In this document: piece by piece, positions 13,337-51,769 of the stretch | Numbering within the stretch: position 1 is the first letter of the stretch | Layout of the letters: each line of letters starts with the position of its first letter | From: Clostridiisalibacter paucivorans DSM 22131 | GTDB taxonomy: Bacteria > Bacillota > Clostridia > Tissierellales > Clostridiisalibacteraceae | Length of the DNA stretch: 55,385 nucleotides | NCBI RefSeq assembly: GCF_000620125.1 | Contig: NZ_JHVL01000023.1 | Span: 1 to 55,385, forward strand | Reading direction: 5' to 3' | Program-made: the position numbers and the translations under genes | Notes under the pieces: model-generated | Told to the model about the DNA's origin: nothing | Database searches by the model: none | The model's input: the letters and a program-made list of their open reading frames with translations, nothing else

Positions 13337-13574
13337 TAAAAAAACCGTCTCTTTGTAATACAAAGAGACGGTTTTATCCCGCGGTTCCACTCTAATTAGG
13401 TACAAATTTATACCCCACTCATTTTATATAACGATGGTCACCCCACCGGAATACCCTACTATAATTCAAGTACCAGTTCAAAGGTGCACTTCAGTAAGAC
13501 ATTGACCCGAAATCTCTCTCAGCTGATAAAGATTCCTCTCTGTAAAGTTTATCCAACCTACTCTACCTTATCAT
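13337..13574 (-). promoter_or_regulatory. T-box leader, cysteine-specific, controlling cysE-cysS-mrnC
   Basis: The minus strand has the conserved T-box motif AGAGTGGAACCGCGGG (13378-13393) followed by a strong terminator, ACCGTCTCTTTG paired with CAAAGAGACGGT and a T-run (13337-13375). The specifier loop region GAAGTGCACC contains TGC, a Cys codon (13486-13488). The T-box TGGA would pair with the ACCU-type end expected of tRNA-Cys, whose discriminator is normally U. Uncharged tRNA-Cys should permit readthrough. Confidence 0.93.
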
Positions 13575-13580
13575 AACCTT

Positions 13581-13609
13581 TATATATGCTTTTTTAAATT
13601 GTAACACAA
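13581..13609 (-). promoter_or_regulatory. Promoter of the Cys T-box operon
   Basis: The minus strand has TTGTGT (13604-13609) and TATATA (13581-13586) separated by 17 bases, a reasonable vegetative promoter placing the start near 13574, just before the T-box stem I. Confidence 0.55.
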
Positions 13610-16240: not shown

Positions 16241-17236
16241 TTAAGGCTTCTTACATATTGCATTGGTAATTTCCTCAGTAGTTGCATTTCCTCCTAAATC
16301 TTTAGTCTTCCATTTCCCTTCTTCCAGTACAGTCCATACAGCCTTTCTAATCCTATTTGCAGCTTGTTTTTCATCAATATAGTCCAACATCATAGCAGAA
16401 GACATTATACATGCTATTGGATTGGCCAACGACTTACCAGCAATATCAGGGGCACTTCCATGTACCGCTTCAAATATACCTATATCCGATCCTATATTTG
16501 CCCCTGGCACTAATCCCAATCCCCCTACTAGACCAGAAGCTAAATCAGACAATATATCACCATATAAATTAGGCATAACTAATATATCATATTTTTCGGG
16601 ATACATAACCAATTGCATACACATATTGTCTACTATCTTCTCTTCATATTCTATATCCGGATATTTTTTAGCTACAGATTTAGCACAATCTAAGAATAGA
16701 CCATCGGTAATCTTCATTATATTAGCTTTATGCACCGCTGTCACCTTTTTTCTATTCTGTTCCTTTGCATATTTAAATGCCTCTTCCACAATCCTTATAG
16801 AACCCTTTTTCGTTATGACCTTTATGGCCTCTGTTACATCTTCATTTATCTTATGCTCTATACCTGCATATAACCCTTCAGTATTTTCCCTAAAGACTAC
16901 TAAATCTACATTATCAAACCGCCCTTTGGTTCCAGGCATAGATTTTAATGGCCTTATATTAGCATAGGTATCAAACTTTTGTCTCAATGTTACATTTATA
17001 CTTTTGAATCCCTTTCCTATGGGAGTAGTTATGGGGCCCTTTAATACTACTCTATTTTTAGATATACTCTCCAACAGAGTCTTAGGTATAAAACTACCTG
17101 TTTTTTTATATGTGTCAGCTCCAGCATTTACTATATCCCACTCTATCTTTACACCAGTGGCATCCACCACCTCTTTGGCAGCGAAGGCAACCTCTGGTCC
17201 TATTCCATCTCCAGGTATTAATGTAACTCTAGTCAT
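16241..17236 (-). CDS. NAD-type isocitrate dehydrogenase (isocitrate/isopropylmalate dehydrogenase family)
   Basis: The protein (331 residues) is a beta-decarboxylating dehydrogenase. It shows LIPGDGIGPEV, the substrate motif KSINVTLRQKFDTYANIRP (the SxNxxLR form typical of isocitrate dehydrogenase rather than isopropylmalate dehydrogenase), ENTEGLYAGIEH, VHKANIMK with the catalytic Lys, the metal-binding YGDILSDLASGLVGGLGL, and FEAVHGSAPDIAGK near the nucleotide site. It should oxidise isocitrate to 2-oxoglutarate; homoisocitrate cannot be excluded. The ATG at 17236 overlaps the aconitase stop by eight bases, with GGAGG inside aconitase. Confidence 0.9.
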   Translation of the reverse strand: MTRVTLIPGDGIGPEVAFAAKEVVDATGVKIEWDIVNAGADTYKKTGSFIPKTLLESISKNRVVLKGPITTPIGKGFKSINVTLRQKFDTYANIRPLKSMPGTKGRFDNVDLVVFRENTEGLYAGIEHKINEDVTEAIKVITKKGSIRIVEEAFKYAKEQNRKKVTAVHKANIMKITDGLFLDCAKSVAKKYPDIEYEEKIVDNMCMQLVMYPEKYDILVMPNLYGDILSDLASGLVGGLGLVPGANIGSDIGIFEAVHGSAPDIAGKSLANPIACIMSSAMMLDYIDEKQAANRIRKAVWTVLEEGKWKTKDLGGNATTEEITNAICKKP

Positions 17237-19172
17237 TGTCAATTCCTCCAAAATTCTTTTTAACCCAATTTAAATATCCACCTGCCATAAGGATATCAAC
17301 ATCTCTCTTTGAACCTGCAAAACGACACTTTATTACTATATCTTTGGTCTTATTTATAACTTCAATTTCATTGTTTTCAATCAACAAATCTCTCAACTTA
17401 TATATATATATATCATCATCAAAACCTATGTTTTCATAATCCTCTTTATTTATGAACTCCAAAGGTATTATACCTGCATTGATCAAATTCGCCTTATGAA
17501 TTCTAGCAAAGGATTTAGCTAAAATAGCCTTTATTCCAAGATATAATGGTACTAAAGCAGCATGTTCTCTGCTTGAGCCTTGACCATAATTTTCTCCTCC
17601 AACTATAAACCCACCATTATTTTCTTCACATCTCTTCCAAAATTCATCATCTATAGTGCTAAATGCATATTTAGAAAGATGGGGAATATTTGATCTATAT
17701 GGTAGCAAACTGGCATTAGATGGCATTATATGATCTGTAGTTATGTCATCATCTACCTTCAACACCACTTTACCCTCTATACAATCCTTCAATTTCTTAT
17801 TTATAGGAAATGGTTTAATATTTGGACCCATTTTGACCTTTAAGCCATCTCTTTTTTCTGAAGGATATATGAATAAATTATTATTTTCTTTAAATACCTC
17901 GGGTACATCTATGTCTATTGCCTCTCCCAATACCCTTGGGTCTTCAGCATAACCCTTTATGGCTGATATAGCTGCCACTTCTGGACTTACCAAATATACA
18001 TGGGCACTCTTAGTTCCGCTTCTTCCATAGAAATTCCTATTAAAAGTTCTCAAAGATATGGCATCATTCTTAGGTGCTTGCCCCATACCTATACATGGAC
18101 CACATGCACATTCCAATACCCTTGCACCAGCTGAAATCATATGGGCTAAAGCTCCATTTTCTGCTAGCATATTTAGTATTTTACTTGATCCAGGCGATAT
18201 ACTGAGACTTACATCTGGATGAACTTTTTTGCCTTTCAGTATATTGGCAACCTTCATTAAGTCTGTATATGATGAGTTAGTGCAGCTACCTATAGCTACC
18301 TGATCTACCTTTAGCCCCTTTATATTCTCTATTGTATCTACATTATCAGGACTATGGGGTTTAGCTACTAATGGTACTATATCTCCTAAATCTATATCTA
18401 TCACATCATCATAAACTGCATCTTCATCTGCCTTTAATTCAATCCAATCTCCTTCTCTATTTTGAGACCTTAGATATTCATATGTTTCATTGTCACTAGG
18501 AAATATGGATGTAGTAGCACCTAATTCAGCGCCCATATTGGTTATAGTGGCCCTATCTGTTACTGATAAGTACTTAATCCCATCACCTGAATATTCTATA
18601 ACCTTTCCTACCCCACCTTTTACTGTTAATTTATCTAGTATATACAATATAATATCTTTTGCAGAAACCCATGGTTTAAGATTTCCGTTAAGATTTACAT
18701 TTAAAACCTCTGGCATCTTAAGCCAATATTTCCCTGTAGCCATTGCAACTGCCACATCTAACCCACCAGCTCCAATAGACAACATACCAAGGCCTCCATT
18801 TGTGGGGGTATGGCTATCCGAGCCTATCAATGTACCCCCTGGTTTCCCAAAGTTCTCTAAATGTAATTGGTGACATATACCATTACCAGGCTTAGAAAAA
18901 ACAATTCCATATTTAGCAGCAGCACTCTTTATAAATTCATGGTCATCAGCATTTTCGAATCCTGTCTGCAATGTATTATGATCTATATATGCAACAGATA
19001 AATCAGTCTTTATATCCTTTATATCCATTGCCTCTAATTGTAAATATACCATGGTTCCTGTGGAATCTTGGGTCAATGTTTGGTCTATTTTTATCCCTAT
19101 TTCTTCTCCCTTTTTTAGTTGTCCTGAAACTATATGTCTTTCAAGTATCTTATATGTCAAATTTTTTCCCAT
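17229..19172 (-). CDS. Aconitate hydratase (4Fe-4S, monomeric mitochondrial-like type)
   Basis: This 647-residue enzyme isomerises citrate to isocitrate. The three cluster cysteines are in GSCTNSS and in ACGPCIGMG. Substrate residues appear in GSDSHTPTNGGLG, TDHIMPS and the C-terminal swivel domain (GGENYGQGSSREHAALVPLYLG). The length fits the short clostridial aconitases, not the roughly 900-residue AcnA. It is the second gene of the citrate synthase-aconitase-isocitrate dehydrogenase operon, with 14 bases to the upstream gene. Homoaconitase activity is a less likely alternative. Confidence 0.93.
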   Translation of the reverse strand: MGKNLTYKILERHIVSGQLKKGEEIGIKIDQTLTQDSTGTMVYLQLEAMDIKDIKTDLSVAYIDHNTLQTGFENADDHEFIKSAAAKYGIVFSKPGNGICHQLHLENFGKPGGTLIGSDSHTPTNGGLGMLSIGAGGLDVAVAMATGKYWLKMPEVLNVNLNGNLKPWVSAKDIILYILDKLTVKGGVGKVIEYSGDGIKYLSVTDRATITNMGAELGATTSIFPSDNETYEYLRSQNREGDWIELKADEDAVYDDVIDIDLGDIVPLVAKPHSPDNVDTIENIKGLKVDQVAIGSCTNSSYTDLMKVANILKGKKVHPDVSLSISPGSSKILNMLAENGALAHMISAGARVLECACGPCIGMGQAPKNDAISLRTFNRNFYGRSGTKSAHVYLVSPEVAAISAIKGYAEDPRVLGEAIDIDVPEVFKENNNLFIYPSEKRDGLKVKMGPNIKPFPINKKLKDCIEGKVVLKVDDDITTDHIMPSNASLLPYRSNIPHLSKYAFSTIDDEFWKRCEENNGGFIVGGENYGQGSSREHAALVPLYLGIKAILAKSFARIHKANLINAGIIPLEFINKEDYENIGFDDDIYIYKLRDLLIENNEIEVINKTKDIVIKCRFAGSKRDVDILMAGGYLNWVKKNFGGIDND

Positions 19173-19186
19173 AGTATCCTCTCCCT

Positions 19187-20335
19187 TTAAGCCTGTTTCA
19201 TGTCTAATCCATTTTCTAAAAGATATTCTTCATATATATTTAATAATTCTTTATCAGTTAAAGCCCTCTTCAAAGATACAGAAGTATGTCTAACCTTTTC
19301 CAATACCCTTGATGCAGTAAAATTATCTATATTTATATCATTTTGAGATAATTTATTCTTAATTGCAGCAGTTCCTGAGTGTTTTCCTATAACAATCTTT
19401 CTTTCCAATCCCAATTCATCAGGATTAAATATTTCATATGTCAATGGATTTTTAAGGGCTCCATCAGCATGTATGCCTGATTCATGTGAGAATATATTCT
19501 TGCCCACTATAGTCTTCCATGGTGAAATGTCTCTACCAGAGGCTATAGAAACATATTCACATAGGGGTTTGAGCTTATTTATATTATATCCATTATCTAT
19601 ATTCAAGGAACTCTTCAATGCCATTGCAGCCTCTTCCAATGCAGCATTTCCTGCCCTTTCTCCCAATCCATTCACTGTAACGCCAACATAATTAGCCCCT
19701 GCCATAACTCCCGCTATAGCATTTGCTGTCGCCATACCTAAATCGTTATGGGTATGCATTTCCACATCTATACCTACATTATCCTTTATATATTTAACAA
19801 TGTCATAGGTATCTATAGGATTCATTATACCCACTGTATCGCAAAATCTCACCCTGTCAGCTCCAGCTTCCTTTGCCAATTTTGCAAATTTCAACAAGAA
19901 TGGTCGTTCAGTTCTAGAACTATCTTCGGCATTCACTGAGACGTACATTCCATTTTTCTTAGCATAATAAACAGCATTGGTCATATCCTCCAAGACCTCT
20001 GCCCTAGTAGATTTCAATTTATGTTTTATATGGATATCTGATGTGGATATAGATATGGCAACTGCATCTACACCACAATCTATGGACGCTTGTATATCTC
20101 TAATAACGGCTCTATTCCAACCCATAATACTTGCCTTTAAATTGCTTTTAACTATTTTCCTTATAACTTCCTTTTCATCTCCACCCATGACAGGTATACC
20201 TGCCTCTATCTGTTCAACCCCAACTTCATCTAAAAGTTTAGCTATATAAATTTTTTCTTCATTAGCAAAAACAACTCCAGCAGTTTGTTCTCCATCTCTA
20301 AGCGTAGTATCTACCAATCTAATTTTCCTTTCCAC
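19187..20335 (-). CDS. Homocitrate synthase-family enzyme, probable (R)-type citrate synthase
   Basis: The 382-residue protein belongs to the DRE-TIM metallolyases: VDTTLRDGEQTAGVVF at the N-terminus, VRFCDTVGIMNP, the metal ligands EMHTHNDLGMATANA and GLGERAGNAALEE, and SHESGIHADG. Homologues act as homocitrate synthase, isopropylmalate synthase or Re-citrate synthase. The following aconitase and isocitrate dehydrogenase argue for citrate made from oxaloacetate and acetyl-CoA to supply 2-oxoglutarate and glutamate. Homocitrate cannot be ruled out. The start is GTG at 20335 with GGAGG seven bases upstream; the longer reading frame has no ribosome site. Confidence 0.85.
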   Translation of the reverse strand: MERKIRLVDTTLRDGEQTAGVVFANEEKIYIAKLLDEVGVEQIEAGIPVMGGDEKEVIRKIVKSNLKASIMGWNRAVIRDIQASIDCGVDAVAISISTSDIHIKHKLKSTRAEVLEDMTNAVYYAKKNGMYVSVNAEDSSRTERPFLLKFAKLAKEAGADRVRFCDTVGIMNPIDTYDIVKYIKDNVGIDVEMHTHNDLGMATANAIAGVMAGANYVGVTVNGLGERAGNAALEEAAMALKSSLNIDNGYNINKLKPLCEYVSIASGRDISPWKTIVGKNIFSHESGIHADGALKNPLTYEIFNPDELGLERKIVIGKHSGTAAIKNKLSQNDINIDNFTASRVLEKVRHTSVSLKRALTDKELLNIYEEYLLENGLDMKQA

Positions 20336-20373
20336 ACCAATTCCTCCCTTAACAAAATTTCTTCTTTGCATCT

Positions 20374-20410
20374 TTGTATACAATTATACATTTTTTGAAA
20401 TGTGTTTGTC
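20374..20410 (-). promoter_or_regulatory. Promoter and GntR-type operator of the citrate operon
   Basis: On the minus strand TTGACA (20405-20410) and TATAAT (20383-20388) lie 16 bases apart, both consensus. Immediately downstream, at the expected transcription start, is the perfect palindrome TTGTATACAA (20374-20383), the form of operator used by FadR/VanR-type GntR proteins. The gntR gene ends the operon, so this is probably an autoregulatory repression site. Confidence 0.75.
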
Positions 20411-20690
20411 AATAACTTTCATAATTTAATTTTTGAATTACTTTTTATTAACAATTTATCCATCCTTAATTTTAATATGAAATCCTTTATTTTTAAACGT
20501 TTTTATGCATTATATCGATTGAACTCAAAAATATTTTTAATATTTTCCAATGCAAGTTATTTATTTATTTATTCATTAATTTTATAATTCTCTCCTTTTA
20601 TTCAAACTTGATATTTATATACTCTTTATTTTTTTTGCCATATATAATAAACTATTTACAAGATAAGTTTAAAATTTAAAATAAATTAGG
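20411..20690. other. Divergent intergenic region without a recognisable gene
   Basis: About 280 very AT-rich bases lie between the citrate operon promoter (minus) and the HutP-family gene (plus). No credible coding region, RNA structure or repeat was seen. A TATAAT at about 20643-20648 on the plus strand could be the -10 of the HutP-family gene but has no good -35. Confidence 0.4.
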
Positions 20691-20700
20691 AGGCCTTTTT

Positions 20701-21120
20701 ATGAATTTTAAAAGTACCGATGTGGGTAAAGCATCTGTAAACATGGCTATATCCTCTAGAGCTGAAGAGGAAAGACTCATAAAAGAATATAAATCCAAGG
20801 GAATGATTGCAACAGCAGTAGATATAGGTGGAGATCTCATTGCATCAATACCTAAAATTATAGAGAGGGCAATAGTCTCTTCCAAAAGATGTGGGCTTAT
20901 TGAAGAATCCCATATACATGAAGGGGCAGTGGTAGGTGCTACTAGAGAAGCTATCATGCAAGTGGGAGACAAGGCCCATGGCTTTAGTGTTGGAGGCAAG
21001 ATAGGTATTGCTCGAAGTGGAGAACATATAAGTGTATGTATATTTCTAAGTATAGGACTTCTTCACTTAGATGAAGTTGCCATAGGATTGGGACATAGGT
21101 CTATACCCATAATAAAGTAA
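20701..21120 (+). CDS. HutP-family RNA-binding antitermination-type protein
   Basis: The 139-residue protein resembles HutP, the hexameric B. subtilis protein that binds UAG triplets and controls termination in the hut leader. Shared features are AVDIGGDLIASIPKIIERAIVSSKR, the core GAVVGATREAI, KIGIARSGEHISVCIFLSIGLLHLDEVAIGLGHR and the C-terminal GLGH. Two metal-coordinating His residues of B. subtilis HutP (in its HALYHATMEAL segment, recalled from memory) appear to be Gly here. AGGAGG lies seven bases before the ATG. There is no hut operon nearby; instead a UAG-rich leader and an ABC transporter follow directly. Its RNA target and ligand are inferred. Confidence 0.85.
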   Translation: MNFKSTDVGKASVNMAISSRAEEERLIKEYKSKGMIATAVDIGGDLIASIPKIIERAIVSSKRCGLIEESHIHEGAVVGATREAIMQVGDKAHGFSVGGKIGIARSGEHISVCIFLSIGLLHLDEVAIGLGHRSIPIIK

Positions 21121-21149
21121 TATTCCCAGAATTTTAACAATATTTATTC

Positions 21150-21178
21150 TTGACATATATATTTATATAATATATAAT
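21150..21178 (+). promoter_or_regulatory. Consensus sigma-A promoter of the UAG-leader/ABC transporter operon
   Basis: TTGACA (21150-21155) and TATAAT (21173-21178) are exactly 17 bases apart, a perfect match to the vegetative consensus. Transcription would start near 21185 and run through the UAG-rich leader. It begins 30 bases after the HutP-family gene. Confidence 0.9.
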
Positions 21179-21216
21179 CACACTCAAATATAAATTTGAA
21201 GCGTTGTAAGAATTCG

Positions 21217-21272
21217 TAGATTATGTAGTGTAGTATAGTAGGTAATACGTAGAATGGTAGCATGGTAGGGAG
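21217..21272 (+). promoter_or_regulatory. UAG-triplet array in the leader RNA (probable HutP/TRAP-like binding region)
   Basis: Eight TAG triplets start at 21217, 21226, 21231, 21236, 21239, 21250, 21258 and 21266, plus a GAG at 21270, all within 56 bases of untranslated leader. Spacing ranges from 3 to 11, with the last three TAGs at a regular period of 8. Such arrays are the targets of TRAP and HutP. The 3' end GGGAGT (21268-21273) can pair with ACTCTC (21295-21300), the left arm of the terminator, giving a candidate antiterminator. No T-box motif or tRNA-like element is present. Confidence 0.65.
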
Positions 21273-21294
21273 TTCTTTATAATTTTTGTATAAC

Positions 21295-21326
21295 ACTCTC
21301 CTATGGGAGAGTTTTTTGTTTTTTTA
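21295..21326 (+). terminator. Leader terminator upstream of the ABC transporter
   Basis: ACTCTCC and GGAGAGT form a 7-bp GC-rich stem with a short loop, followed by TTTTTTGTTTTTTT, an excellent intrinsic terminator. It lies between the promoter at 21150 and the first gene at 21369, so it acts as an attenuator as well as ending any HutP-family transcript. Confidence 0.9.
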
Positions 21327-21368
21327 AACTATTATAAATATAAAAATATTTTTTAGGAGGATGGTAGT

Positions 21369-22391
21369 ATGGTAGTGAAAAAAAGATTTGCTATTCTAAT
21401 TTCTATCTTGTCAATTTTTTCAATTCTTTTAATAGGCTGTTCTGATGATAAAACAGCTGAAAATCAAAACTCTTCATCTAATTCAAATGATGATCAGAAA
21501 GTTTCCATAGGTATTTCTCAAATTGTTGAACATCCTGCTCTGGATGCTGCTAGAGAGGGTTTTATTGCCGCTTTAGATTCCAAAGGATTTAAAGATGGAG
21601 AAAATCTCGAAGTGGATTATCAAAATGCCCAAGGGGATATGCCCACGGCTCAAACTATAGCCAATGATTTTGTATCTTCTAAAAAAGATTTAATTTTAGC
21701 TATAGCTACCCCTACAGCTCAAGCAGCTTATAATGTAACCAAGGATATTCCAATAGCTATTACTGCCGTTACAGATCCTGTAGAAGCAGGTTTAGTAAAA
21801 TCTTGGGATAAATCCAATACTAATGTATTTGGTACCAGCGATGCTACTCCAGCAGATAAGCAATTTAAGCTTATCCAAGAACTGTTTCCAAATGCCAAAA
21901 ATATTGGGATTATATACAATACAAGTGAAACTAATTCAGAAATCCAAGTAGAAAAAGTTAAAAAAATAGCAGCAGATTTAGGATTAAATATAATCACATC
22001 GGGAGTAACCAATGTAAATGAGATTAGTCAATCCTTAGATTCTATTACTAACGATATAGATGTATTATATACTCCTACTGACAATACTGTAGCATCATCT
22101 ATGCCATTAATTGTAGATAGATGTACTGAGAAAAACATCCCTGTTATAGGGGCAGAAAAGGCCCATGTTGAAGCAGGGGCATTGGCAACTGAAGGAATAG
22201 ATTACTACAAATTAGGATTTGAAACTGGCCTAATAGCAGTGAAGGTATTAGAAGGAGAGTCCCCTGAAGATATGCCCATTTCAACACTTAAAAATACCGA
22301 ACTAGCTATAAATCTAAAAACAGCAAAAATGTTGGATTTAAATATTCCAACAGACATCAAAGACAATGCAATATTGATTGGGGAGGAGTAG
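21369..22391 (+). CDS. ABC transporter substrate-binding lipoprotein (TrpX-type)
   Basis: A 340-residue lipoprotein: signal segment with lipobox LIGC (Cys24), then an Asn/Ser-rich linker and a periplasmic-binding-like fold (VSIGISQIVEHPALDAAREGFIAAL; LILAIATPTAQAAYNVTKDIPIAITAVTDPVEAGL). This is the family of TrpX, associated with aromatic amino acid uptake. The actual ligand cannot be read from sequence. AGGAGG lies eight bases before the ATG. The ribosome site and start are overlapped by two TAG triplets repeating the leader motif. Permease and ATPase genes follow. Confidence 0.9.
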   Translation: MVVKKRFAILISILSIFSILLIGCSDDKTAENQNSSSNSNDDQKVSIGISQIVEHPALDAAREGFIAALDSKGFKDGENLEVDYQNAQGDMPTAQTIANDFVSSKKDLILAIATPTAQAAYNVTKDIPIAITAVTDPVEAGLVKSWDKSNTNVFGTSDATPADKQFKLIQELFPNAKNIGIIYNTSETNSEIQVEKVKKIAADLGLNIITSGVTNVNEISQSLDSITNDIDVLYTPTDNTVASSMPLIVDRCTEKNIPVIGAEKAHVEAGALATEGIDYYKLGFETGLIAVKVLEGESPEDMPISTLKNTELAINLKTAKMLDLNIPTDIKDNAILIGEE

Positions 22392-22393
22392 AT

Positions 22394-23290
22394 ATGTTTA
22401 CATTTTGGATTAATACTATGGAACAAGGACTAATTTTTTCTATAATGGTTCTTGGTGTCTTTATAACATATAAAATATTAGACTTTCCTGACTTATCTGT
22501 AGATGGCAGTTTCCCTTTGGGAGCTGCTGTTGCAGCTAGTATGCTTACTAGAGGAGTAGATCCCATAATTACCAGTATATTAGCCCTATTAATGGGTATG
22601 TTAGCAGGCTTTTTCACAGGGATTTTGCACGTTAAATTTAAAATTACTAATCTCCTTTCCGGTATATTAGTAATGATAGGTCTTTATTCCATTAATCTCA
22701 GGGTAATGGGAAAAGCAAATGTACACCTTTTTGATAAAGAGACTTTGTTTAGCAATAATATTAATCCCTTAATAATTATACTTGCATTTATGATTATAAC
22801 TAAATTAGTATTAGACTTTTTATTAAAGACTAAATTTGGTTTTATATTAAAGGCTACGGGAGATAACCCACAATTAGTAACATCTTTGGGGATAAATATA
22901 GGAACTATAAAGATATTGGGATTAATGATAGCCAATGGTTTTGTATCTCTGTCAGGAGCAATACTGGCACAATATCAGGGCTTTTCTGACGTAGGTATGG
23001 GAGCTGGTATGATAGTTATGGGATTGGCATCTATTATATTGGGTGAGGCAATACTTAAGAAAACCCCTTTAAACTCTCCTACAATAATGGCAGTAATAGG
23101 TGCATTATTATATCAGATAGGAACTGGATTCGCATTGAAACTGGGATTCCCTGCAACAGATTTAAAGCTCATAACTGTAATAATAATAGTATTGGCATTG
23201 GCATTCAAAAACAACCCTTTAAAGTTTAATCTAAAAAAGTTTATATTTACTGGAGGTGATTCCCCTGTTACGAATACGAAATCTGCATAA
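22394..23290 (+). CDS. ABC transporter permease (TrpY-type)
   Basis: The 298-residue protein has about eight membrane segments and belongs to the permease group related to branched-chain amino acid and sugar permeases. Typical segments are ILDFPDLSVDGSFPLGAAVAA near the N-terminus and SGAILAQYQGFSDVGMGAGMIVMGLASIILGEA. It begins two bases after the lipoprotein stop, with GGGGAGGAG overlapping that end. It should form the channel for the substrate bound by the upstream lipoprotein. Confidence 0.9.
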   Translation: MFTFWINTMEQGLIFSIMVLGVFITYKILDFPDLSVDGSFPLGAAVAASMLTRGVDPIITSILALLMGMLAGFFTGILHVKFKITNLLSGILVMIGLYSINLRVMGKANVHLFDKETLFSNNINPLIIILAFMIITKLVLDFLLKTKFGFILKATGDNPQLVTSLGINIGTIKILGLMIANGFVSLSGAILAQYQGFSDVGMGAGMIVMGLASIILGEAILKKTPLNSPTIMAVIGALLYQIGTGFALKLGFPATDLKLITVIIIVLALAFKNNPLKFNLKKFIFTGGDSPVTNTKSA

Positions 23291-24059
23291 GACATTCAAT
23301 AATAATACTGTAAATCAAGTAACCTTATTTAAAAGTCTATCTTTAGATATAGAAGAAAATGACTTCGTTACAATAATAGGTAGTAATGGTGCAGGAAAAT
23401 CAACCTTATTAAATATAATCTCTGGAATGATAAGTATAGATGATGGAACTATAGTTTTGAATGATAAAGATATCTCTAAAATGACAGAATTTAAAAGAAC
23501 AAGATTCATAGGGAGGGTATTTCAAGATCCTTCTTTAGGTACTTCTCCTTCTATGACTATACTAGAAAATCTGTCCATGGCATATAATAAAGGAAGAAGT
23601 TTCGGTCTTTCTCATGGTGTATCCAATAAAAACATACCCCTCTTTAAGGAACTTTTGTCCCAATTGTCTTTGGGACTAGAAGACAAATTAGATACAAATG
23701 TTGGTATGTTATCTGGGGGACAAAGACAATCTCTAGCATTAATTATGGCAACACTGTCTACGCCTAAGTTATTGCTTTTAGATGAGCATACAGCAGCACT
23801 AGATCCTAAAACCTCTGAAACAATAATAAAGATTACTAAAGATATAGTTAAAGATAAGAAAATATCTACTCTTATGGTAACACATAATTTGAATCACGCT
23901 ATAGATATAGGAAACAGACTAATTATGCTCCATAGGGGTGCTGTAGTATTAGACATAAGGGACAGAGAAAAGGATAACTTAACTATAGATAAATTACTAA
24001 AATTATTCAATAATATAAATCCCTCAGATAGCTTGAGTGATAGGTTGCTATTTTCATAA
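23256..24059 (+). CDS. ABC transporter ATP-binding protein (TrpZ-type)
   Basis: The 267-residue ATPase has Walker A GSNGAGKST, Q-loop in GRVFQDPSLGTSPSMTI, signature LSGGQRQ, Walker B LLLLDEHTAALD and a switch His in VTHNLNHA. The EHTAALDPKT form is typical of this transporter family. The 5' end overlaps the permease gene by 35 bases. The GTG at 23256 overlaps its GGAGG site, so true initiation may be at CTG 23265, eight bases after it, giving a start MLRIRN like homologues. A terminator follows. Confidence 0.9.
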   Translation: MIPLLRIRNLHKTFNNNTVNQVTLFKSLSLDIEENDFVTIIGSNGAGKSTLLNIISGMISIDDGTIVLNDKDISKMTEFKRTRFIGRVFQDPSLGTSPSMTILENLSMAYNKGRSFGLSHGVSNKNIPLFKELLSQLSLGLEDKLDTNVGMLSGGQRQSLALIMATLSTPKLLLLDEHTAALDPKTSETIIKITKDIVKDKKISTLMVTHNLNHAIDIGNRLIMLHRGAVVLDIRDREKDNLTIDKLLKLFNNINPSDSLSDRLLFS

Positions 24060-48828: not shown

Positions 48829-48990
48829 ATAAAACCCTCTATCCTGAAATTAGGATAAAGGGTTTATATACAACCGTATGCAGAATTAGATATTTCCCTC
48901 CGCTGGCATTACCCAGTTCAGGTTTCGTGGGTCGAGACATGTAGCCTCCTCTCAGCCAAATTACTTCAGCTCCCCCTTTTCCTATATTAC
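48829..48990 (-). promoter_or_regulatory. TPP riboswitch with terminator, controlling the thiamine-precursor uptake operon
   Basis: The minus strand has the THI-box elements GGGGGAGCTGAAG, GGCTGAGAGG, ACCTGAACTGGGTAATGCC and AGCGGAGGGA (about 48894-48978) in canonical order. It is followed by a terminator (48831-48865: AAACCCTTTATCCT paired with AGGATAGAGGGTTTT and a T-run). TPP binding should favour termination. Confidence 0.96.
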
Positions 48991-51525: not shown

Positions 51526-51769
51526 AAAAGACCTTCATCTCTTAAATATAGAGACGAAGGTCCGCGATACCACTCTATTTGATAGCCAAAATAAAGCTAT
51601 CCCCTCAATTAGTTATAACGGATATTATCCGACTAGAGTTACTCTTTTCACCCTAATAGCTCTGGGACGAGTTCATCTTCATTAGTTGCTGTCTTTCACC
51701 ATAACAACAGCTCTCTGAAAACAATTATGAAAACTACTACTTCCCTTCCATGCTTTAATTTATAGATTT
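51526..51769 (-). promoter_or_regulatory. T-box leader, leucine-specific, controlling leuS
   Basis: The T-box motif on the minus strand is AGAGTGGTATCGCGG (51562-51576), followed by a terminator, GACCTTCGTCTC with GAGATGAAGGTC and a T-run (51526-51562). The specifier region GAACTCGTCC contains CTC, a Leu codon (51669-51671). The T-box reads TGGTATCG where most have TGGNACCG, a small variation. TGGT fits the ACCA end of tRNA-Leu. Confidence 0.93.

Follow-up and report, generated by a model that had tools for sequence, protein, structure and literature searches.

A HutP-family protein gene beside a proposed UAG-array attenuator of a TrpX-type transporter operon, and a predicted aromatic regulon in Clostridia

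The window analysed here, a 55,385-nucleotide (nt) stretch of the Clostridiisalibacter paucivorans DSM 22131 genome (contig NZ_JHVL01000023.1, positions 1 to 55,385), contains a gene of the HutP family (PF09021) followed on the + strand by a promoter, a leader rich in UAG triplets, a terminator and an ABC transporter operon of three genes. The locus has the following features.

20655..20682, + strand: promoter-like site upstream of hutP (pattern scan, 10/12)
20701..21120, + strand: HutP-family protein gene, 139 amino acids (PF09021 profile), proposed to encode an aromatic (tyrosine) responsive RNA-binding regulator
21150..21178, + strand: leader consensus promoter, TTGACA-17-TATAAT (12/12 matches)
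21217..21272, + strand: UAG/GAG array, proposed HutP binding site 1 (triplet positions and conservation in relatives)
21266..21273, + strand: antiterminator 5' strand (UAGGGAGU), overlapping the last UAG and the GAG of the array
21295..21303, + strand: terminator left arm, which is also the antiterminator 3' strand (ACUCUCCUA; pairing and folding)
21295..21318, + strand: intrinsic terminator, 7-base-pair stem and U run (pattern scan)
21354..21375, + strand: second array over the ribosome-binding site and start codon, UAG-N8-UAG-N5-UAG (sequence)
21369..22391, + strand: substrate-binding lipoprotein, ABC_sub_bind family (PF04392, E 7.7e-87)
22394..23290, + strand: ABC permease (PF02653, E 5.1e-26)
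23256..24059, + strand: ABC ATPase (PF00005, E 6.8e-29)

A first-pass annotation of the letters alone had described a HutP-family gene 30 bases ahead of a consensus promoter, eight UAG and one GAG triplets in 56 bases, and a terminator hairpin before an ABC transporter operon. This layout was confirmed with its coordinates correct: the last base of the hutP stop codon is 21120 and the first of the -35 box is 21150, the UAG triplets start at 21217, 21226, 21231, 21236, 21239, 21250, 21258 and 21266 with the GAG at 21270, the terminator (ACTCTCCTATGGGAGAGT plus a T run) spans 21295-21318, and genes for a binding protein, permease and ATPase lie downstream. The TrpXYZ-type label given to the transporter calls for caution: its binding protein scores 318.7 bits with the NCBIfam TrpX equivalog NF041285, under the cut-off of 390. 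Absent from that annotation was the second array, with UAG at 21354, 21365 and 21373 across the transporter start codon. A density of 8 UAG per 70 nt was attained in 1% of 300 dinucleotide shuffles of the window leader. Exact matches to the pattern GTAGNANGGTAG number 3 in the 3.25-Mb genome, every one inside the window leader; its reversed form has 14 genome matches, hence the forward count is ordinary and the clustering unusual. An Rfam scan of the leader gave no gathering-score match among 4227 families, T-box included.

To place the arrays among relatives, 66 hutP-linked transporter leaders were compared, 52 of which entered the UAG-spacing and promoter counts. TAG-N5-TAG was found in 60/66 leaders, compared to a mean of 16.8 and a maximum of 24 in 100 rounds of shuffling, and with the last 40 nt excluded it was still present in 56 linked leaders versus 13.7 in shuffles. 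The UAG period is kept in the linked leaders: pairs 8 apart are commonest (96 versus 14.3 in shuffles), and pairs 3 apart (69 versus 16.3), 5 apart (40 versus 16.4) and 11 apart (45 versus 13.5) are likewise in excess, with part of the 8- and 11-spaced pairs stemming from the start-codon array. A promoter with at least 5/6 matches in both boxes is present in 43/52 linked leaders. Among homologues not linked to hutP, TAG-N5-TAG occurs in 9/38 leaders from genomes with HutP and in 0/32 from genomes without it (40 were fetched for each group; 2 and 8 were dropped as their short coding end gave no tblastn hit). Seven of the nine (L250-L253, L255, L256 and L258) resemble true arrays, while L267 and L287 resemble chance or TRAP-type sites.

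The start-codon array is similarly widespread. TAGNATG is found at the transporter start in 48/65 linked loci versus 8/328 control starts, and TAGNATGGTA at 48 linked loci versus 0 of 328. This array would add a translational level of control. Leaders other than the attenuator type have no recognisable terminator ahead of the gene and possess only the array and the start-codon array; because these terminator-less leaders retain both, translation control may be the common core of the system.

Attenuator-type leaders have a final array element (typically UAGGAGAUA) that complements the terminator's left arm (typically CUCUCCUA), and this pairing often encloses an A+T-rich hairpin that is variable in sequence with the pairing retained. 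Across lineages the two strands change in step, as UAGAACA with GUUCUG (L042, L045), UAGGAGU with GCUCUUA (L258), UAGUAU with AUACUA (L012) and UAGGGAAA with UUUCCCUC (L251-L253), which is the compensatory change that the first-pass annotation had suggested looking for. For seven hand-picked pairs, the mean duplex energy was -9.9 kcal/mol for cognate and -5.2 kcal/mol for non-cognate combinations, and some G-rich elements also pair well with one another's left arms. Folds of the pairing stretch gave z-scores down to -5.2 (-2.5 for the window), and about 0 or above in L032, L035, L044 and L095. A rank test was based on a rule that ignores pairing, taking the last GTAG before the terminator and ranking it among the UAGs of its own array. 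This element was the best complement of the left arm in 20/31 leaders (permutation p < 1e-5), a set that takes in seven leaders with a false terminator inside the transporter frame (L013-L015, L019, L020, L022 and L023), one of which ranks first. In the window, UAGGGAGU is the best of 8 elements at pairing with the left arm.

Folding predictions are consistent with a switch. For a window transcript ending in the terminator loop, the antiterminator is the predicted minimum-energy fold, with 6.35/8 of its pairs expected. When the array (21215-21270) is barred from pairing, the antiterminator is lost (partly by construction) and only the terminator forms in the model. The earlier proposal that the array end can pair with the terminator left arm, such that binding of the array would favour termination, thus agrees with the calculated folds.

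The neighbouring protein belongs to the HutP family by both profile and fold, and fails two traits of the Bacillus protein, namely the ligand residues and the linkage to hut. PF09021 matches it with E 3.4e-43 and 147.4 bits (cut-off 25) over model positions 1-128 of 128. An AlphaFold2 monomer model, built from 30 relatives, has a mean pLDDT (predicted local distance difference test) of 93, and a Foldseek search of the PDB with this predicted structure placed HutP 1vea first (E 7.6e-10); matches 1-11 are all HutP, with E 7.6e-10 to 1.2e-6, and the next lies at 2.1e-2. Comparison of the model with B. subtilis HutP gave VIA Z 18.1 across 128 residues (25% identity), the next unrelated structure having Z 8.2. 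A sequence search of the PDB with either the single protein or the HutP alignment reached no HutP, the alignment even at E 10. Hence the Clostridia HutP branch is distant.

Residues His73, His77 and His138 of B. subtilis HutP, which we take to form the L-His/Mg2+ site, align with G75, G79 and L123 of the window protein, and G, G and L occupy these positions in 20/20 branch members aligned; Glu81 aligns with Glu or Asp. The alignment is at ~25% identity, and an invariant or near-invariant His71 and His122 lie nearby, so a local shift or another site is possible. Because the presumed His/Mg2+ histidines are missing, histidine is an unlikely effector, and a histidine ligand in the familiar binding mode is improbable. 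The genome context agrees with the first-pass annotation in placing this HutP outside hut operons: the genome's PF00221 (HutH) match is on contig C21 and hutP on C17. Across 128 genomes with HutP and 265 without, no association between HutP and hutH was seen, PF00221 being present in 9/128 and 40/265 respectively. Histidine was therefore ruled unlikely as effector on both the residues and this non-association.

PF09021 was found in 128/393 Clostridia-class genomes (completeness at least 90%), with best scores of at least 133 bits in 126/128. Among nearer relatives, 43/100 genomes possess HutP, in part a second, lower-scoring type (e.g. L027-L030). This second type accounts for 22/49 matches, at 87-119 bits; tblastn with the window protein misses it, and some genomes have two copies. 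At 205 loci, the gene next to HutP encodes a TrpX-type binding protein (66), an AroH-type chorismate mutase (80), aroF (DAHP synthase; 1) or something else (58, some of these with short flanks). A set of 100 class-sample loci comprises AroH then cmk (45), cmk (29), TrpX (14), other (11) and unmatched (1). These counts are not independent, because the sets share organisms (e.g. L069 and L212 seem to be the same contig). Some aroH-type loci extend into aroF-tyrA-aroA or trp operons. Locus labels were assigned by tblastn to reference proteins, with the AroH, TrpE, TrpG, TyrA, PheA, AroA, AroF and Cmk references confirmed by Pfam. A group II intron fragment was observed downstream of one HutP-transporter locus (L069, 4125-4219).

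The best PDB match of the window binding protein is 6hni (E 2.3e-101). An excerpt of PMC6816091 describes this structure as CD0873 with bound tyrosine and supplies a two-residue substrate code, Glu-263 and Tyr-279. The equivalents are E and Y in the window protein, and the pair is present in 25/26 linked HutP-array members. As proof of tyrosine this two-residue code was rejected, it being also found in 6/8 tryptophan and 9/9 phenylalanine T-box homologues. T-box leaders of homologous transporters have specifier codons for Phe, Tyr or Trp, read by eye in printed alignments from model columns. A tree of 58 binding proteins places linked HutP-array members together with CD0873 and 4/7 tyrosine T-box members, with weak support (80/82), and apart from 6/8 tryptophan T-box members. 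A 100/100 clade holds the HutP-linked L092 together with four tyrosine T-box transporters, which looks like an exchange of one regulator for the other. The sequences suggest a transporter more likely for tyrosine than for tryptophan. Because the nearest solved relative of the binding protein is tyrosine-bound CD0873, tyrosine is the likeliest effector, a best guess rather than a result. TRAP was found in 9/9 aroH-type HutP genomes searched and in 0/9 of the others, the window's genome and L095 among these, and TRAP-like GAG arrays lie ahead of trp operons in L070, L083, L101 and L102. This distribution is compatible with a division of labour in which TRAP senses tryptophan and HutP another ligand.

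Sites away from hutP point to a wider regulon. The motif GGTAGNAYGGTAG occurs in 49/128 genomes with HutP (77 matches) versus 40/265 without (45 matches; p 4.7e-7). Of the match loci read, 32/45 with HutP fall at starts or leaders of aromatic-type genes or transporters, versus 1/35 without (Fisher p 8e-11); the 45 are not a random sample, because 20 were hand-chosen, mostly away from hutP and not known TrpX. The 32 predicted targets comprise TrpX-type transporters (9, three of them hutP-linked), SSF symporters (9), DAHP synthase (4), lactate-permease family members (3), EPSP synthase (2), beta-eliminating lyase (2), and chorismate synthase, a shikimate dehydrogenase-kinase and an SNF-family symporter (one each), so that motif sites include aroF, aroA, aroC and aroE as well as symporters and the TrpX-type transporter. 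Families were assigned by Pfam for 30/32 and by TrpX search for L357 and L358; in L371 and L372 the frame opens upstream, and the match lies at the symporter start. The remaining match loci with HutP are 10 inside reading frames and 3 intergenic without an assigned target (L329, L331 and L378). The lone target without HutP, L409, is an SSF-like symporter named by eye, from family f30, in which other genomes frequently carry HutP. The clearest trans case is L250, which lies on the hutP contig at a distance of 434 kb and has all four elements (array, antiterminator, terminator and start-codon array).

Several of these gene families deserve separate mention. A lactate-permease-family gene with a start-codon array is present in three related genomes with HutP (L335, L338 and L339), its substrate possibly an aromatic acid. 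SSF symporters with the array at their start occur in nine genomes with HutP (L332-L334, L359, L371, L372, L374, L375 and L377); the two tested are PutP-like and below the PutP cut-off, and these proteins are perhaps an unrecognised aromatic amino acid symporter. The aroH gene was rejected as a general target, with an array at only 6/79 aroH starts in a strict search window. By eye, one aroH family has repeats of UAG or similar triplets just beyond that limit (L124, L128, L137, L140, L158, L162, L170, L216 and L217).

From the arrays and their pairing partners, we infer the following mechanism, which as a whole we regard as probable. Loaded with an aromatic amino acid, in all likelihood tyrosine rather than another, the HutP-family protein would bind the UAG array of the leader. 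With the array unbound, its end UAGGGAGU would pair with the terminator left arm, permitting read-through into the transporter operon; once bound, the array end would be held, no antiterminator could form, and the terminator would fold and stop transcription. At the second array, the same protein would block translation at the ribosome-binding site and start codon. As the array end lies on the antiterminator strand, and the ribosome-binding site within a second array, repression is predicted, the outcome being feedback repression of uptake with TRAP-like logic. In other Clostridia, the same protein may control genes of aromatic biosynthesis and transport in trans. The interpretation in the first-pass annotation, that the adjacent protein binds the array and switches the terminator, is supported by the sequence comparisons, and the finding is larger than first stated: a HutP-family UAG-array attenuator, apparently working by feedback, whose predicted regulon across Clostridia is aromatic.

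A number of observations weigh against this mechanism. UAG density alone is not significant (p > 0.1) in 18/52 leaders, the exact motif is missing from 79/128 genomes with HutP, and in genomes with HutP many unlinked homologues are preceded by a T-box or by no recognisable element. The window's own genome has a second TrpX homologue (L249, C30:15955-16830, 54% identical) that lacks a UAG array. The window element pairs with L251/L252-type left arms as well as or better than with its own, and when bases around the UAGs were shuffled, 17/20 single-leader pairing tests gave p > 0.05 (0.29 for the window), a shuffle too weak for single leaders, so that the cognate/non-cognate and rank tests were used instead. 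The window leader can also pair 21199-21215 with GGAGUUCUUUAUAAU, forming a helix that competes with the antiterminator and that, in the predicted full-length fold, accompanies the terminator without any protein. Positions that we take to be ligand and RNA contacts in B. subtilis are mostly altered, hence recognition must differ in detail. Finally, the binding-protein tree puts 4/5 unlinked HutP targets and 3/7 tyrosine T-box members in its other half, alongside phenylalanine T-boxes.

Among the alternatives, an accidental UAG run in A+T-rich sequence has in our view almost no chance of being correct: the single-leader shuffle gives p 0.01 for the window and exceeds 0.1 for the 18 leaders mentioned above, yet the 60/66 leaders stand against a shuffled maximum of 24, and targets are enriched in genomes with HutP. 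It is very improbable that another factor such as TRAP reads the array and that hutP is a mere neighbour. TRAP too reads NAG triplets, and some TrpX homologues bear TRAP-like NAG-N2 arrays, but PF02081 has 0 matches in the window's genome (G000, 99% complete) and in 8 other HutP genomes without adjacent aroH, and the UAG spacing is mostly 8, not 5. On these two grounds TRAP was rejected as the array reader in the window's genome. The presence of TAG-N5-TAG ahead of unlinked homologues in only the genomes with HutP (9/38, the doubtful L267 and L287 included, versus 0/32) likewise argues against this alternative.

The sign and the effector leave more room. We consider it unlikely that, as in B. 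subtilis, ligand-bound protein on the array prevents the terminator, resulting in induction rather than repression. Far upstream of a beta-eliminating lyase gene, whose name implies catabolism, there is a triple array (L336 and L337), the window's upstream helix could terminate by default, and an excerpt of PMC7430163 describes B. subtilis HutP as acting in this manner. Speaking for repression instead, most attenuator leaders have the array end on the antiterminator strand rather than on the terminator, and the second array spans the ribosome-binding site. A device identical in operation and responding to phenylalanine, tryptophan, a pathway intermediate (e.g. prephenate) or still histidine is a serious contender, although we lean away from it. 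Phenylalanine and tryptophan T-boxes serve homologous transporters, many targets are common-pathway genes, and the aroH step lies on the route to phenylalanine as well as tyrosine; against this, the nearest substrate-binding protein structure is tyrosine-bound, CD0873 and 4/7 tyrosine T-box members cluster with the linked HutP-array proteins (at 80/82 only), and the PF00221 distribution speaks against histidine in particular.

HutP is the textbook RNA-binding antiterminator of histidine breakdown in Bacillus, known for a single operon and a single ligand. The window system shares with B. subtilis HutP (PDB 1vea, 1wmq) the PF09021 family, the same fold over 128 residues at 25% identity and NAG triplets in the leader, and differs in its lack of hut linkage, the G, G and L at the presumed ligand positions H73, H77 and H138, a commonest UAG spacing of N5, predicted repression and a predicted aromatic regulon. 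In Bacillus TRAP (MtrB), which like HutP reads NAG triplets in leader RNA, the amino-acid-bound protein on an array of triplets 2-3 nt apart blocks an antiterminator and also covers ribosome-binding sites. The proposed logic is the same, whereas the protein family is another, the window's genome has no PF02081 match and the triplets are mostly N5 rather than 2-3 nt apart. As a separate observation by eye, TRAP-like NAG arrays with ~2-nt spacing lie upstream of TrpX homologues in L263, L283 and L287 (with HutP) and in L308, L322 and L328 (without). T-box leaders of TrpX/CD0873-type transporters serve the same transporter family and amino-acid group, but sense uncharged tRNA without a protein, and the window leader has no T-box match. 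The predicted regulon is similar in gene set to that of Escherichia coli TyrR, a transcription factor that governs DAHP synthase, shikimate genes, aromatic transporters and a beta-lyase, with the difference that TyrR acts on DNA.

Elsewhere in the window, on the - strand and divergent from hutP, consecutive genes at 16241-20383 encode a homocitrate-synthase-like protein (TIGR02660, above cut-off), an aconitase and an isocitrate/isopropylmalate dehydrogenase; these could form a Re-type citrate synthase route to glutamate rather than one through homocitrate. Also on the - strand are two ordinary T-box leaders, one ahead of a leucyl-tRNA synthetase gene (51547-51759) and one ahead of a hexapeptide transferase and cysteinyl-tRNA synthetase pair (13361-13583), and a thiamine pyrophosphate (TPP) riboswitch ahead of an ABC permease gene (48877-48986).

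A search of the open-licence literature returned no paper on HutP outside hut, which is no proof that none exists. Taken jointly, the observations incline us, by a narrow margin, to view Clostridia HutP as a global RNA-level regulator of tyrosine/aromatic metabolism, equivalent to TyrR, with this possibly the main role of the family and the Bacillus branch specialised. Such a regulator would operate through attenuators and start-codon blocks in about one third of the Clostridia-class genomes sampled. If true, this would assign a function to a widespread gene for which that search turned up none, and would constitute a third answer, beside TRAP and T-boxes, to the sensing of aromatic amino acids via leader RNA.

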